Positions 7,899 to 48,011 of a stretch of 64,000 nt of DNA are shown one piece after another. Each line of letters opens with the position of its first letter. Within the stretch, counting starts at the first letter, position 1. The notes beneath the pieces are model-generated. The model worked only from the letters and a program-made list of their open reading frames with translations, was not told where the DNA came from and did no database searches. The stretch covers positions 186,001-250,000 of the forward strand of contig NZ_JAOWLB010000001.1 in assembly GCF_025751555.1 (NCBI RefSeq). Reading direction: 5' to 3'. The position numbers and the translations under genes were made by a program. Source of the DNA: Ruegeria aquimaris. Lineage in GTDB: Bacteria; Pseudomonadota; Alphaproteobacteria; Rhodobacterales; Rhodobacteraceae.

Positions 7899-7953
7899 TC
7901 CCCCCTGTTTAATCGCCGAGGCATGATTTCCGCCTGGGCAAGTCGGGATCCCG

Positions 7954-7981
7954 TTGCACTTGCGCACCAAGCGACTATATT
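7954..7981 (+). promoter_or_regulatory. ssrA promoter
   Basis: TTGCAC (7954-7959), 16-bp spacer, TATATT (7976-7981). The predicted start near 7988 falls just before the acceptor-piece hairpin GTTCCC-TC-GGGAAC. Confidence 0.55.
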
Positions 7982-7986
7982 CGGCA

Positions 7987-8297
7987 TGTTCCCTCGGGAA
8001 CTATGGACATAAACGCGCTCGTAATACGCGGATCGGACCCGGGGGCGGTACCCGGCGGCTCCACCAAGAACCCTCGTTGGGGGACAATGGGGCCGAAATA
8101 GGATCGACGGACGTCTAAAGGGGTTTGCTTTGTCTCGGCGGGGTACCACCGTTATCGGTCCGTAAAGCATAATTGCCAACGACAATCGTGCTCCGGTTGC
8201 TCTGGCTGCGTAAGCAGTCCGAAACACCGAAACTTAAGCCCTTGCGCCTAGCAGCGTAAGGCGGGGTTCGCAGGTACCTGGCAACAGAAACCTGCAT
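7987..8297 (+). ncRNA. ssrA: Transfer-messenger RNA, circularly permuted two-piece form
   Basis: tmRNA frees stalled ribosomes and adds a degradation tag. The gene is permuted as in alphaproteobacteria: the acceptor piece comes first and ends in GGCTCCACCA at 8066, a spacer of about 22 nt is removed, then the coding piece begins at 8089 with GGGGCCGAAATAGGATCGAC. GGGGCCG and CGGCTCC form the 7-bp acceptor stem with a G-U at the third pair, the alanine identity signal. The tag frame at 8175-8210 reads ANDNRAPVALAA and ends in TAA. End points of the mature pieces (about 7987 and 8297) are approximate. An 8-bp inverted repeat AACAGAAA/TTTCTGTT at 8283-8305 may serve as the terminator. Confidence 0.95.
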
Positions 8298-8399
8298 TTT
8301 CTGTTTATATGTTTGTACTTTTGGCCACTTATCCGACTATTGTTCAGTTTTCATTCATCATTTCCCCCAATGCTGTAGCTGTCAGCGATGGAGGATCAG

Positions 8400-8831: not shown

Positions 8832-8971
8832 ACTGCTGCGGCGGCACTTGGCAGGTGCATTGACATCCCCTGCCGAGTTGCACTAGCGATAGGCTCATGG
8901 GGTCGCTTGCGAACGCCCCGTGAGGCCTCGGCCCAAGTTTCGCATGTATCCTTTGACGAGAGGAGCATGCC

Positions 8972-9787
8972 ATGGCTGCGCCAAGTGAAATCACCGTCCC
9001 CCAATTGCTGCGCCTGATAGGCACGCCGGATTGTCCGGTTCTGGTGGATATCTCCATAGATGCGGATTTCACCGAGGATCCGCTCCTGATTCCGGGCGCC
9101 TTCCGCCATCCGCACACAGACTATGCCGGTCTCGTCTCGCGTCTCGCCGGACGGCGCTGCGTTGTCATCTGCCAGCAGGGCATCAAGCTCAGCCAAGGTC
9201 TGGTCGCGCGCCTGCGCGACGACGGGCATTCGGCCGAGTACCTTCAGGGCGGCAACCATGGCTGGCGCGACAATCATGGCGCTCCCCGTATCCCCGCAAC
9301 AGCGATCCCTGCACCAGCAGAGGGCGCCACGCTCTGGGTCACCCGCCACCGGCCCAAGGTCGACCGGATTGCCTGCCCCTGGTTGATCCGGCGTTTCGTG
9401 GACCCTGCGGCGAGGTTTCTGTTCGTCTCGCCCGACCAGGTCCTGGGCGTCGCGGACCGCTACGGCGCAACACCGTTCGACGTGGAAAACGTCTTCTGGT
9501 CACACCGGGACGACAGATGCAGCTTCGACACCATGCTCGATGAATTCGGATTGCGAACCGCGGCGCTTGACCGGCTATCGCGAGTTGTGCGCGGCGCCGA
9601 CACCGACCGGCACCAAATCTCACCGCAGGCGGCAGGACTGCTTGCGATTTCGGTCGGATTGTCGCGTCAATTCCGCGACGATCACGACCAATTGGCCGCC
9701 GGTATGGTGCTTTATGACGCGCTCTATCGCTGGGCGCGCGATGGGCATAACGAAGGCCACGACTGGCCCGCGGACCGCCGGTCATGA
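8972..9787 (+). CDS. Rhodanese-ChrB fusion, chromate resistance protein
   Basis: A 271-residue protein with two domains. Residues about 5-100 form a rhodanese-like domain with a cysteine in VVICQQGIKLSQG at the active-site position. Residues about 115-265 match the C-terminal ChrB domain (RPKVDRIACPWLIRRFVDP, then WARDGHNEGHDW at the end). ChrB-type proteins accompany ChrA and act as regulator or accessory factor in chromate resistance. The stop overlaps the chrA start by 4 bp (ATGA), so they are one operon. The DNA-binding N-terminal part of classical ChrB is absent here. Confidence 0.85.
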   Translation: MAAPSEITVPQLLRLIGTPDCPVLVDISIDADFTEDPLLIPGAFRHPHTDYAGLVSRLAGRRCVVICQQGIKLSQGLVARLRDDGHSAEYLQGGNHGWRDNHGAPRIPATAIPAPAEGATLWVTRHRPKVDRIACPWLIRRFVDPAARFLFVSPDQVLGVADRYGATPFDVENVFWSHRDDRCSFDTMLDEFGLRTAALDRLSRVVRGADTDRHQISPQAAGLLAISVGLSRQFRDDHDQLAAGMVLYDALYRWARDGHNEGHDWPADRRS

Positions 9788-44440: not shown

Positions 44441-44540
44441 ATAGGTCACAATTGCTGACCTGCATAGGTGATTTTTTCACCACCAAGCGCAGTTGTATTC
44501 CGTTCCCTGTGGAAATTGTCATGTGTTTCATATAGGTGAT
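44441..44540. promoter_or_regulatory. Candidate LysR binding region between the oxidoreductase and LysR genes
   Basis: ATAGGTGAT occurs exactly at 44464-44472 and 44532-44540, with a variant ATAGGTCAC at 44441-44449 (23 bp before the first). The first copy is part of GGTGA-TTTTT-TCACC, an inverted repeat of LysR type. Lies in the 171-bp divergent gap. Confidence 0.45.
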
Positions 44541-44565
44541 CGGGCGCATAAAGAAAGTTGCGGAT

Positions 44566-45471
44566 ATGGACTGGGACAAGCTTCGGATATTTCATGCGGT
44601 TGCCGACGCGGGCAGCCTGACCCATGCGGGAGACAAGCTGAATCTGTCTCAGTCGGCGGTCAGCAGACAGATCCGTGGCCTTGAGGAATCGCTGAACGCG
44701 ACACTTTTTCACCGCCATGCGCGTGGCCTGATTCTGACCGAACAAGGCGAACTTCTGTTCGACGCCACAAAATCCATGGCCAAGCGCCTGGACGCCGCTG
44801 CCGCCCGTATCCGTGACAGCGAGGAGGAAGTGTTCGGCGAGTTGCGGGTAACAACCACCTTTGGCTTCGGCACCCTCTGGCTGGCGCCGCGCCTGACGGC
44901 GCTCTATCAGAAGTATCCCGATCTCAAGGTCGATCTCATGCTCGAAGAACGGGTGCTCGATCTGCCCATGCGCGAGGCCGACGTTGCCATCCGCATGAAA
45001 GAGCCCAGCCAGGCCGATCTGATCCGCAAGCGATTGATGACCGTCGAGATGAAGCTTTACGCCACCCGCGCCTATCTCGACTCGGCCGGCACCCCCCAGG
45101 ATATCAGCGACATCAGCGACCACCGGCTGATTTGCCAGAACACCAATGCCGCGCAAGTCGGCGCCAGCGTGGTTCTGGCCCAGCACCTGCTGGCCTACAA
45201 CCCCTCGTCGCTGTTGACGGTGAACAACTATTTCGGCGTACTTCAGGGGGTATTGCACAATCTGGGCATCGGTGTGCTGCCCGACTACGTGACCCAGGAT
45301 TTCCCCGACCTCATTCACGTCCTGCCTGATATCAAATCGGCACAGGTGCCGGTTTACCTGGCCTATCCAGAGGAACTGCGCCATTCCCAGCGGGTCGCGG
45401 CCTTCCGTGACTTTGTACAGGAAGAAATCATCGCGCACCGCAAACAGCTGAAAGAACTTGGAATTCTATGA
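44566..45471 (+). CDS. LysR-family regulator
   Basis: 301 residues. Winged helix at the N-terminus (LRIFHAVADAGSLTHAGDKLNLSQSAVSRQIRGLEESL) and a periplasmic-binding-like effector domain (GELRVTTTFGFGTLWLAPRL). The ATG at 44566 is chosen over a GTG at 44536. Divergent from the indolepyruvate oxidoreductase gene, its likely target. A perfect hairpin GCTATGCA-N5-TGCATAGC lies 10 bp after the stop, without a U tract. Confidence 0.88.
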   Translation: MDWDKLRIFHAVADAGSLTHAGDKLNLSQSAVSRQIRGLEESLNATLFHRHARGLILTEQGELLFDATKSMAKRLDAAAARIRDSEEEVFGELRVTTTFGFGTLWLAPRLTALYQKYPDLKVDLMLEERVLDLPMREADVAIRMKEPSQADLIRKRLMTVEMKLYATRAYLDSAGTPQDISDISDHRLICQNTNAAQVGASVVLAQHLLAYNPSSLLTVNNYFGVLQGVLHNLGIGVLPDYVTQDFPDLIHVLPDIKSAQVPVYLAYPEELRHSQRVAAFRDFVQEEIIAHRKQLKELGIL

Positions 45472-45566
45472 CAGCCAGAAAGCTATGCAACAACTGCATA
45501 GCGGAAATGCTGCACCTGCGACATCAAAGTTCTTGAAGAAAGCGCCGGTGCCTCCTAAATCAGCTC

Positions 45567-45650
45567 TCGAAGGCGATGATGCTTAGACGCTCATCATCTT
45601 CATACCTCCCTGTTGGACTACGGCCGAGCTTAGTGCTCGGCCTTTTTTTT
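45567..45650 (+). ncRNA. Candidate small RNA with CCTCCC anti-Shine-Dalgarno loop
   Basis: A promoter TTGAAG-N17-TAAATC (45533-45561), a hairpin GATGATG-N10-CATCATC (45575-45598), a single-stranded stretch with CCTCCCTGTTGG (45605-45616) and a perfect terminator with eight T (45622-45650) make a unit of about 84 nt. No reading frame of interest. Exposed CCUCCC between two hairpins is the hallmark of alphaproteobacterial sRNAs that pair with ribosome sites. The exact family is not identified. Confidence 0.55.
45622..45650 (+). terminator. Intrinsic terminator of the candidate sRNA
   Basis: GGCCGAGC-TTAGT-GCTCGGCC followed by TTTTTTTT: perfect 8-bp stem and strong U tract, the best terminator in the window. 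It is 150 bp after the LysR stop, more fitting to a separate short transcript. Confidence 0.92.
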
Positions 45651-45746
45651 GCTTTCGCCCGGAACCGCTCTCTTTCCGGTGAAACTGTTTGAGTTCACGC
45701 CAACGCAAGGTAGAAAGAAGACATACAAAAAATACGAGGGCAATTC

Positions 45747-48011
45747 ATGAAACCGCTTTTCAAGGTGTTGGCCCTGTTGGCCGCCCTGTTCTGCATATCC
45801 GTTCCGTTGGCGGCCCAGGTTCCGACCCCTTCGGGAAGCCCACAGGCGACGACTCCGACAGTTCCCGATGATCTGACACCCGACCAGGTCGACGATCTGG
45901 TCGCCCGTCTGTCAGACGACCAGGTCCGCGCCCTGCTGTTGGAGCGTTTGGACGCGGTGGCGCAAGCCGCGAAAGCACCTGCGGAACCGCGCAAAGGCCC
46001 CATCGCCCGGGCCGGTGACGCCGCCAAAGCGCTGGTCGCCTCATGGTTGGACGCCCTGAGCAAGGTTCCTGTGCTGGTAACAAAGCAGGCCGAAGCGCTC
46101 TCGAATTTCGCAACCGCGCTCGGCACCGCGGGCATGGCAACGCTGTTTGGCTATACACTGCTGGCGCTCGCCATTGGCTACGCTGCCGAGAAAGTCGCGG
46201 TTTACATCACACGCTCATGGATCAAGGCCGACCCCGCCAGCGCCTCGGACGACCTGCGTGGTGCGGTTGGCTATCTGTTCCGGCGGTTCTGCCGCGAGGT
46301 TCTGGGTCTGGTCGTGTTCTACTACACCCTCGTCTTTGTTGGACGCCGCCTGCTGGAGCCCGAGCAGATCGCCTATGCGGCGCCCTTCGTGCTCTACCTG
46401 ATCTGGTTGCCGCGTCTGGGGGCGGCGATCTCGCGCTTTGTGCTTGCGCCGAACCGGCCCGACCTTCGGCTGGTCAATGCCGATGACCATTGGGCGCGCT
46501 ATCTGCATCGCAACCAGATCGGCCTGTTCCTGCTGATCGGCTTCACCCTGTTCATCGTCACCTTCAATGATCTCAACGGTGTTGCGATGGGCGATATGAG
46601 GCTGGGGTTCTGGCTGAACAGTTCGATCCACATCTATATTGCGCTGATCGCCTGGACCGCGCGCAGCGGCCTGACCGAGATGATGCGGGGCAATGATCCC
46701 GACCGCACCGAATTCGACGAGAAGGTCGCGACCTACTACCCATATTTCGCCATCGCAGTCTCGGCCGCTGTCTGGCTGATCGTGGAATACTTCGTGGCGA
46801 TCCGCGACATGGCGGTGCTGGCCAATATCGGCGCGGGCGCCCATTACGTGACCATGTTCTGGCTGCTGATGGCCCCGGCCATCGACACGCTGATCCGGGG
46901 GCTGGTGCGGCATCTGCAACCGCCGATGATCGGTACCGGCGCCATCGCTGAAAAGGCCTACCGCTCGACCAAACGCAGCTATATCCGCATTGGCCGCGTC
47001 CTCGCGGGTATCTTTGTCGTCTTGATGATCGCCAATGCCTGGGAGATCGACCTGCGGCAGGTGGCGGGTGCCGGATCCGATGTCGGGGGGGCCGTCATCC
47101 AGTTCCTGATCATCATTGCAGTCGGCTACATCCTGGACGAGGTCATCTCGCTCTGGATCAACCGCCGACTGGCAAAGGAACAGACAGCGATAGACCAAAG
47201 CCCCGACGAGGAAGCGGGAGAAGGCGGTGGCGCCGGAGGCTCGCGCCTGGTGACTGTTCTGCCGTTGCTTCGCGTCACGGCGCAGGTCGCCATCGCGGTG
47301 ATCTTCGGCCTGCTGGCGCTGGGGGCGCTGGGGCTGGACATCACGCCGCTGCTGGCGGGCGCAGGGATCCTGGGTCTGGCCATCGGTTTCGGGGCCCAGA
47401 AGCTGGTCGCCGATATCGTGGGCGGTGTGTTCTTCCTGATCGACGACGCGTTCCGTGTGGGCGAATATGTTGATGTGGGCGGCACCACCGGCACGGTCGA
47501 GAAAATCTCGATCCGCTCGATGCAGCTGCGCCACCACCGCGGCCCGGTGCACACGATCCCCTATGGCGAGATCGCCAAGCTGACAAACTACAGCCGCGAC
47601 TGGGTGATCATGAAACTGAAGTTCACCGTGCCGTTCGACACCGACCCCAACAAGGTCAAGAAGATCTTCAAGAAGATCGGCGCCGAGATGATGGCGGACC
47701 CGGTGCATGCCGAAGGCTTCCTGCAACCGTTCAAATCGCAGGGTGTGTTCGATTTCGACGACGTCGGCATGATCATCCGGGGCAAGTTCATGGCCAAGCC
47801 CGGCAAGCAGTTCACCCTGCGCAAGGAGATCTTCAACAAGGTCAAGGCCGAGTTCAAGGCCAATGGCATCGACTTTGCCCGCCGCGAGGTGCGCGTGGCC
47901 ATTCCCGGTCTCGACGAGGCCGAACATTTGACGCCCGATCAGAAAACAGCGGTGGCCGCAGCAGCAGCGCAGGCCGCCAACGAGCAATCGCAACAAGGCG
48001 GTGGCGAATAG
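45747..48011 (+). CDS. MscS-family mechanosensitive ion channel (long form)
   Basis: 754 residues: signal peptide (residues 1-24), a periplasmic Ala/Pro/Asp-rich region, then many membrane helices and the MscS core near residues 510-640 (LAIGFGAQKLVADIVGGVFFLIDDAFRVGEYV, then RHHRGPVHTIPYGEI). The extended N-terminal part is like YbiO/MscK channels. It protects against hypo-osmotic shock. Single gene with its own terminator at 48045-48071. Confidence 0.92.
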   Translation: MKPLFKVLALLAALFCISVPLAAQVPTPSGSPQATTPTVPDDLTPDQVDDLVARLSDDQVRALLLERLDAVAQAAKAPAEPRKGPIARAGDAAKALVASWLDALSKVPVLVTKQAEALSNFATALGTAGMATLFGYTLLALAIGYAAEKVAVYITRSWIKADPASASDDLRGAVGYLFRRFCREVLGLVVFYYTLVFVGRRLLEPEQIAYAAPFVLYLIWLPRLGAAISRFVLAPNRPDLRLVNADDHWARYLHRNQIGLFLLIGFTLFIVTFNDLNGVAMGDMRLGFWLNSSIHIYIALIAWTARSGLTEMMRGNDPDRTEFDEKVATYYPYFAIAVSAAVWLIVEYFVAIRDMAVLANIGAGAHYVTMFWLLMAPAIDTLIRGLVRHLQPPMIGTGAIAEKAYRSTKRSYIRIGRVLAGIFVVLMIANAWEIDLRQVAGAGSDVGGAVIQFLIIIAVGYILDEVISLWINRRLAKEQTAIDQSPDEEAGEGGGAGGSRLVTVLPLLRVTAQVAIAVIFGLLALGALGLDITPLLAGAGILGLAIGFGAQKLVADIVGGVFFLIDDAFRVGEYVDVGGTTGTVEKISIRSMQLRHHRGPVHTIPYGEIAKLTNYSRDWVIMKLKFTVPFDTDPNKVKKIFKKIGAEMMADPVHAEGFLQPFKSQGVFDFDDVGMIIRGKFMAKPGKQFTLRKEIFNKVKAEFKANGIDFARREVRVAIPGLDEAEHLTPDQKTAVAAAAAQAANEQSQQGGGE

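Follow-up and report, generated by a model that had tools for sequence, protein, structure and literature searches.

SorY, which limits nutrient import during oxidative stress, has been studied in the photo-oxidative stress response of Rhodobacter, AbcR has been studied in rhizobial symbiosis and Brucella virulence, and the two stand as separate Rfam families. RNAs of the cuckoo/CcsR type carry a CCUCCC-type motif. In R. sphaeroides, SorY (RSs1543, RF02651) is reported to have its own mapped start, at position 1,632,642 (PMC6238624), to be unprocessed (PMC6238624, PMC8307010), to depend on RpoHI/RpoHII (PMC5036791, PMC8307010), and to bind Hfq and repress takP (PMC5036791, PMC6238624, PMC8307010). 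Cuckoo/CcsR RNAs accompany DUF1127 genes and arise by processing of a common transcript (PMC10253847). AbcR RNAs, known from Rhizobiaceae and Brucella, are described with three hairpins (PMC3712013) and two motifs, the first being M1 (CUCCCA) and the other M2 (GUUCCC; PMC5461406). S. meliloti AbcR1 needs LsrB, which binds its box in gel shifts, and removal of that box cut abcR1 promoter activity, while AbcR2 depends on RpoH1, for which the consensus CTTGAA-N16-CCTATAT is given, and is independent of LsrB (PMC8844928). An earlier report conflicts with this, finding LsrB not involved in S. meliloti AbcR expression (PMC7486931). A VtlR box, GCAT-N3-TG-N3-T, has been published (PMC7486931, PMC8844928), and trxB is reported to be a conserved neighbor of vtlR across the class (PMC7486931).

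The window analyzed here, a stretch of 64,000 nt from Ruegeria aquimaris, contains what is very probably a genuine small regulatory RNA gene at 45567-45650 (Table 1), and its conservation in relatives marks the feature as real as far as sequence can tell. The best explanation, in which we have considerable confidence, is that this is a SorY gene whose RNA of about 84 nt has its own RpoH-type promoter, that it belongs to an lsrB/vtlR-operator-sRNA locus recurring across Alphaproteobacteria, and that it works in the way proposed below. The novelty lies in the surroundings of the RNA, a regulator-operator-sRNA cassette with a parallel in the AbcR system; the RNA itself is of an already known kind. 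SorY would gain a candidate second regulator, of the LsrB/VtlR type, and the role of LsrB/VtlR would reach far beyond the Rhizobiales, to which a 2025 paper calls LsrB unique (PMC11975290), with many unstudied families carrying a predicted transporter-silencing RNA. SorY and AbcR, studied separately, lie in cassettes of one kind that share an operator palindrome, which suggests that the two systems are related. No link between SorX/SorY and AbcR was found in the literature searched, which excluded the primary descriptions of SorY, SorX and the cuckoo RNAs.

Table 1. Features of the SorY locus, numbered from the first letter of the window
Feature	Position	Strand	Basis or detail
LysR-type regulator, LsrB/VtlR ortholog	44536-45471	+	conserved MDWDKLR start at 44566
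ATGC-N7-GCAT palindrome (T-N11-A LysR box), proposed LsrB-type operator	45485-45499	+	conservation
GCATAGCGGAAAT, VtlR box with one change (T to G)	45496-45508	+	compared with GCAT-N3-TG-N3-T
Second, imperfect palindrome ATGCTGCACCTGCGACAT	45507-45524	+	just 5' of the -35; consensus of 78 relatives
RpoH-type promoter CTTGAA-N16-CCTAAAT	45532-45560	+	CTTGAA 45532-45537, CCTAAAT 45554-45560
SorY-type sRNA, about 84 nt	45567-45650	+	projected SorY TSS, RF02651 match 45570-45650, fold
5' hairpin	45569-45601	+	structure kept, sequence not
Linker ACCTCCCTGTTGGACT, conserved 16-nt form ACCUCCCUGUUGGACU	45604-45619	+	proposed mRNA-pairing seed
Intrinsic terminator, 8-bp GC-rich stem and U8	45622-45650	+	stem 45622-45642, T8 45643-45650

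The unit begins six nucleotides after CCTAAAT, and its 84-nt RNA has a folding energy of -33 kcal/mol (z -4.4), matched by 1 of 200 shuffles. The 7-bp hairpin described in an earlier note on this DNA is present, as GATGATG (45575-45581) pairs with CATCATC (45592-45598), and it forms part of a longer hairpin. The same note had placed an exposed CCTCCC loop between two hairpins; the exposed anti-Shine-Dalgarno stretch is there (mean unpaired probability of the first 12 linker bases, 0.74), not as a hairpin loop but as the linker that joins the hairpins. The terminator had been called the strongest in the window, and in fact ranks third by hairpin energy among the 44 T-run sites scored (-19.0 kcal/mol, against -21.4 and -20.2 for the two stronger sites), with the longest U tract among the 12 best of them. 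We found no ORF of at least 60 aa overlapping the RNA, so the supposed lack of a reading frame holds above that length; short ORFs do overlap, for example one of 38 aa (ATG 45576-45692) that continues through the terminator.

Searches with Rfam covariance models identified the RNA. The SorY model (RF02651) matches with 55.6 bits (E 1.6e-10) and the SorX model (RF02784) matches the same stretch with 46.1 bits (E 4.2e-10), neither reaching its curated cut-off at 45567-45650 (111 and 46.6 bits, respectively). Only 1 of 120 family genomes passes the SorY cut-off (the R. sphaeroides-type genome G051), and the cut-off therefore excludes nearly all relatives; matches with E up to 0.001 occur in 110 of the 120, some of them elsewhere in the genome and possibly SorX. 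We accordingly claim the window RNA as a SorY ortholog and do not claim Rfam membership. The same genome has a separate SorX above the cut-off (G000:C22:408079-408150, 86.6 bits), and the window copy is therefore the SorY one. In G051 the SorY match starts at C4:1632645, and the published start site projects onto window position 45567, where the earlier note had expected transcription to begin. The window RNA and R. sphaeroides SorY have in common the linker, the terminator, a 5' hairpin, the RpoH-type promoter and the LysR gene upstream (74.8% identity between the window and the R. sphaeroides-type locus L009), and differ in the sequence of the 5' hairpin. With SorX (RSs2461) the window RNA shares ACCUCCCUGUUGGAC and the terminator, but SorX is derived from the 3'-UTR of an OmpR-family gene (PMC6238624).

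Further SorX-like units occur in the same genome. Two are SorX-like terminator units, one at G000:C4:64888-64969 (L041; UUCCUCCCUGUCAGACUGGCC..., SorX model 33.2 bits) and one at G000:C9:24816-24875 (L043; ACCUCCCCGACUGGCC..., 23.2 bits). Another SorX-model match, at G000:C11:3337-3394 (L042; 30.6 bits), is without CCUCCC and follows an ORF whose end we take to resemble a DUF1127 protein; it is possibly the cuckoo-type locus of this genome.

Within the Rhodobacteraceae the RNA is well conserved. Of 91 distinct family loci, a set not selected for the exact word, 81 carry the linker ACCUCCCUGUUGGACU unchanged, in keeping with the expectation that the CCTCCC stretch would be conserved, and 84 have CCTCCCTGT followed by a T run. 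Measured against mononucleotide shuffles, the 5' hairpin has a negative z in all 80 relatives (mean -3.4), with 78 of them under -1. The GATGATG stem is thus preserved as a hairpin and not as a sequence. In an 80-row alignment, three pairs of the terminator stem show changes on both sides, and RNAalifold recovers, besides the terminator, only a pairing of 2 bp within the linker. The 5' hairpin is missing from that structure because the 5' hairpins of relatives do not align, and single-sequence folds with mononucleotide shuffles were used for this reason. Alignment A2 is made up of exact-word loci only, so that its lack of variation in the first nine linker letters is a product of that choice; four early-branching variants (L129-L132) and L138, which is the same place as L024, were left out. 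The 80 named loci are the best-scoring ones retained, and the 30 family loci L009-L038 are those with the best SorY scores and not a random sample. The earlier proposal of a trans-acting-type sRNA unit was sound, and the R1 match described below (E 3.9e-10) puts the unit beyond chance.

The promoter is conserved as well. Of 80 relatives, 68 contain the fixed pattern CTTG-N18-NNTANNT (shuffle mean 0.28), and a 16-nt spacer scores best in 62 of 78 when the best-scoring of several spacers is taken. The conserved form, CTTGA(A/T)-N16-CCTAAAT, agrees with the RpoH1 consensus published for abcR2 (PMC8844928). The heat-shock-like promoter suggested earlier, TTGAAG-17-TAAATC, is the same element read in another register. 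A sigma-70 consensus scan of 44500-46500 found no promoter, which fits the RpoH type. Upstream, ATGC-N7-GCAT precedes the RNA in 53 of 80 family members (shuffle mean 0.8, maximum 4), in 27 of 41 class loci that have the RNA (mean 0.4, maximum 3) and in 9 of 34 class loci that do not (mean 0.4, maximum 2). It also precedes the lsrB-proximal ar15 copy in two of three Rhizobiaceae loci (S. meliloti and R. leguminosarum, not Shinella), where it overlaps the published LsrB box. Of the 80 relatives, 49 carry the overlapping VtlR box in its GG form (shuffle mean 0.84) and 8 in its published TG form (shuffle mean 1.42, maximum 4). A longer GG-containing operator pattern has a single exact match in the window, and with one mismatch allowed has 7, which is at chance level. 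The second palindrome, ATGCTGCACCTGCGACAT, may also have a regulatory role. Genome-wide, ATGC-N7-GCAT-N2-CGG gives 7 hits against 1 for the control, six of them outside the window (L185-L188, L190, L191).

We infer from these elements an LsrB-type control of SorY by the neighboring LysR protein. With an RpoH-type core and an LsrB-type site in one region, the Rhodobacteraceae locus seems to combine on one RNA the RpoH input of AbcR2 and the LsrB input of AbcR1, which in S. meliloti are split between two genes (PMC8844928). On the other hand, the core of the promoter is similar to the one of abcR2, reported as LsrB-independent (PMC8844928), and LsrB control may therefore have been lost here.

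The LysR gene itself is an ortholog of lsrB/vtlR. Its closest solved relative is PDB 9HH1 (E 6.2e-71; the next solved LysR protein, 1e-27), which is A. tumefaciens LsrB (PMC11975290). With 9HH1 as query, the window LysR ranks first in this genome (241 bits against 124 for the next), making the two reciprocal best matches, with the A. tumefaciens side represented by the PDB chain alone; the LsrB and window LysR queries choose the same best gene in 77 of 78 class genomes. At E 1e-60 the window LysR finds a single gene per genome, in 116 of the 120 family genomes and in 78 of 142 class genomes. The protein has only one cysteine, Cys200, which makes redox sensing of the rhizobial LsrB kind doubtful.

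Regulator and RNA keep company across the family. Of the 30 family loci with the best scores, 28 have a LysR relative adjoining the RNA, and a SorY match lies 90-558 nt downstream of LysR on the same strand (median 118) in at least 103 of 116 family genomes, a lower bound counted among the matches listed, with 15 of these omitted, none of them within 700 nt of a LysR gene. In the other 13 genomes no SorY match lies within 700 nt of LysR among the matches listed; seven of these keep CCTCCCTGT and a T run downstream of LysR, one of them 1.5 kb on, and six are without CCTCCCTGT there, including one at a contig end and one in which the RNA has moved. Of 79 usable loci from named records, which include Ruegeria, Phaeobacter, Leisingera and Roseovarius, 69 have CCTCCCTGT and a T run within 700 nt downstream of LysR, 68 of them with the exact 16-mer; L194, of 157 nt, is excluded from the 79. 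In genome G034 the SorY match (C1:956748, L012) and LysR (C1:1130946, L135) are about 174 kb apart, and the RNA there is still highly SorY-like (78.6 bits). The gene on the other side of LysR differs between family and class: trxB is directly upstream of LysR in 26 of 28 class loci and in none of 28 family loci or 80 named loci, the window included, so that by gene order the trxB linkage is lost in the Rhodobacteraceae. The mechanosensitive-channel gene downstream of the RNA was considered as part of the unit and discarded, as it is present in only 5 of 30 family loci besides the window copies L001 and L040 (counted in family loci with 1.5 kb on each side).

Other readings of the unit account for part of these observations. 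A cuckoo/CcsR-type RNA, bearing CUCCUCCC and linked to DUF1127, was what the earlier note had in mind in describing a new copy of that type, and the CCUCCC stretch, the RpoH-type promoter and the alphaproteobacterial host would all suit it, the CcsR operon likewise having an RpoHI/RpoHII promoter (PMC10253847). However, the conserved word is ACCUCCCUGUUGGACU and not CUCCUCCC, the flanking genes encode a LysR regulator and a mechanosensitive channel, and the SorX/SorY scores at this stretch are specific; with these scores and no adjacent DUF1127 gene we reject the cuckoo/CcsR identity as very improbable and regard the unit as an ortholog of the named RNA SorY. The unit is indeed not tied to a DUF1127 gene, as had been remarked, but neither is it unattached, since the LsrB/VtlR-type gene is directly upstream. 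Alternatively, the RNA could be mainly the processed 3' end of the lysR mRNA, with the upstream palindrome acting as an RNA hairpin and not as an operator. The lysR stop codon is just 95 nt from the start site, the palindrome could form a hairpin after it, and SorX itself is 3'-UTR-derived (PMC6238624). We consider this improbable: R. sphaeroides SorY is reported with its own start and as unprocessed (PMC6238624, PMC8307010), the -35 and -10 are conserved in relatives, and across 27 class loci the distance of the palindrome has a standard deviation of 62 nt to the lysR stop and of 25 nt to the RNA word. No T run follows the palindrome, which also rules it out as the intrinsic terminator of lysR. 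A short protein-coding gene or a chance arrangement has next to no likelihood. The 38-aa ORF does overlap the hairpin, but the sequence around its ATG at 45576 is unconserved in relatives where the hairpin is conserved, it passes through the terminator, and the R1 match falls at the unit; the coding reading is rejected with the overlapping ORFs being short and unconserved.

The SorY unit, taken as such, has counterparts outside the family. Exact CCTCCCTGT lies within 500 nt downstream on the gene strand in 41 of 75 LsrB-type loci outside the Rhodobacteraceae (dinucleotide shuffles, 0.2%) and on the other strand in none of the 75; the remaining 34 are without the exact word. The 75 are the loci with enough DNA, L123 being excluded as having no stop codon at a contig end. 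The usual class RNA consists of ACGUC-UCCCA-GACGU, GAAG and CCUCCCUGUU, then a terminator, and CTCCCA precedes CCTCCCTGT in 30 of the 75 loci. A covariance model, R1, was built from the 41 class loci with no Rhodobacteraceae member; it has only 6 base pairs, from RNAalifold, and is therefore mostly a sequence model. In the 64-kb window R1 matches 45579-45650 (E 3.9e-10; next hit E 1.1). It finds every one of the 30 family loci with the best scores and some of the 34 in which the exact word is absent, and it also matches the SorX of this genome (1.7e-10) and the third copy, L041 (6e-7). In the other direction, the Rfam SorX model matches 12 of 18 class loci with E up to 0.1, ten of them up to 4e-4. 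We take these matches to mean that SorX, SorY and the class RNA have a 3' module in common and most likely belong to one family.

The relation to AbcR is less direct. The window RNA lies, as AbcR does, directly downstream of lsrB/vtlR; AbcR1/AbcR2 also share with it the operator palindrome (in two of three loci), anti-Shine-Dalgarno motifs and transporter targets, and AbcR2 in addition its RpoH1 dependence (PMC8844928), comparable to the RpoH-type SorY promoter. AbcR differs in its three hairpins (PMC3712013) and M2 (PMC5461406), and the sequence models do not cross-detect between AbcR and the window or class RNA. No ar15 (RF02345) match is listed up to E 10 at 45300-45800, so the window RNA is not placed in ar15, and no R1 match was found in the S. 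meliloti, R. leguminosarum and Shinella loci (L276-L278), which have two ar15 copies each after LsrB. Searches for ar15 in 18 class loci (E 0.1, permissive filters) and in 142, then 385 class genomes gave no match; the controls were equally silent, and the genome-search null therefore does not show absence. The best LsrB identity in the class sample is 54%, barring one partial match of 63%, so that the sample seems to be without a close Agrobacterium relative. Given this and the silent controls, we examined named loci from a plasmid collection. LsrB-type loci of Methylobacterium, Microvirga, Tistrella and Azospirillum (L279-L282) have neither ar15 nor R1 matches. As to M1, which AbcR carries in the first hairpin, no second CTCCC is found within 60 nt upstream of the window linker, and one is found in 1 of 81 family loci with the exact linker. 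The M1 motif CUCCCA does recur in the hairpin of the class RNA. In the RNAs of L057 and L093, a UCCUCCC loop like that of AbcR is combined with a 3' part of the SorY-like or class type; in L057 the loop CUUCCUCCCAGUU resembles UUCUCCUCCCAGU of AbcR1 and the 3' part ACCUCCCUGUUAGACUU is like SorY. Rfam suhB, of the clan (CL00108) that also holds ar15, reaches at most 35.1 bits (E 0.0017) in class loci, under its cut-off of 41. At L057 (G160:C3), 150-750 nt downstream of LysR, several CUCCC units stand in a row, with AbcR-like loops and a SorY-like linker, a natural multi-copy array that is a candidate AbcR/SorY intermediate.

We give slightly better than an even chance to the view that SorY, SorX, AbcR and the unnamed class RNA (a hairpin ACGUC-UCCCA-GACGU, then the linker GAAGCCUCCCUGUU and a terminator) make up a single ancient family of the Alphaproteobacteria. 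It would have arisen next to LsrB/VtlR as a regulator-operator-sRNA cassette that restrains the uptake of solutes. In the Rhodobacteraceae the two inputs known from rhizobia, LsrB acting on AbcR1 and RpoH1 on AbcR2, would then have merged into one promoter region, with loss of the M1 hairpin and with the linker frozen as a 16-nt seed. The common descent of SorY and AbcR within this view rests on locus, operator and layout, and its probability is put at a little over one half; the odds of homology were lowered slightly because L279-L282 are without either RNA and the published form of the box is rare here. SorY and AbcR may instead be non-homologous, as different anti-Shine-Dalgarno RNAs that came to one LsrB-type operator, or as the result of a replacement, with their likeness a convergence on GGAGG. 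The silence of ar15 in the 385 class genomes (where the controls are silent too) and in the 18 class loci, and that of R1 in the three Rhizobiaceae loci with two ar15 each, would be expected on this account, which we hold to be possible, if short of probable. Against it stand the identical place of SorY and AbcR after the same regulator and operator, CUCCCA (PMC5461406) in the class RNA hairpin and before CCTCCCTGT, the composite RNAs of L057 and L093, and the suhB scores, under cut-off as they are.

In the working proposed for the SorY cassette, stress acting through RpoH and the neighboring LsrB/VtlR-type regulator at ATGC-N7-GCAT would set the level of the RNA. The linker ACCUCCCUGUUGGACU would pair, presumably with Hfq, with GGGAG ribosome-binding sites and mask them; the main targets would be mRNAs of TRAP/ABC solute-binding proteins, with a predicted AACAGGGAG at the ribosome-binding site, and nutrient uptake would be lowered under oxidative or related stress. 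In G051 one gene matches PDB 2HZK, which we take to be TakP, at E 4e-229. The pairing of its ribosome-binding site with the linker (-24.2 kcal/mol) is the best of nine TRAP (DctP) binding-protein genes in that genome and second of nine once the CCUCCC core is discounted, and takP is a published SorY target (PMC6238624). In contrast to R. sphaeroides, the takP-like gene of the window genome (L290) is not clearly a TakP ortholog and pairs less well. The pattern ACAGGGAG-N3-10-ATG occurs 47 times in this genome versus 3 times for the reversed pattern, a control that leaves in place a general preference for GGGAG at starts. Thirty of the 47 sites were taken in contig order, of which two are antisense to SorY and SorX, three are without an ORF of at least 100 aa, and 25 have such an ORF starting at the site. 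Nine of these 25 are solute-binding proteins (seven from solute-binding Pfam families and two NMT1-type), and one further ORF is an oligopeptide-type ABC ATPase. Solute-binding proteins number 0 among 46 window ORFs (Fisher 2.7e-5; 3.8e-4 when the comparison is restricted to the 29 that have a Pfam hit), with Pfam limits of 1e-5 and 1e-10 in this comparison. TRAP genes pair better with the linker than window genes do (P 6e-6), and they also have stronger Shine-Dalgarno (GGGAG) sites overall (P 1.3e-6); the pairing gain beyond CCUCCC is suggestive only (P 0.06). The target evidence is confounded because TRAP genes carry strong GGGAG sites regardless. A background count of NNNGGGAG was too small and consisted mostly of antisense SorY.

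Elsewhere the window holds two ordinary RNA features, a tmRNA of the alphaproteobacterial type at 7949-8298 and, at 8894-8974, a chrB-a RNA motif that lies upstream of a chrB-like gene and a gene for a chromate transporter.
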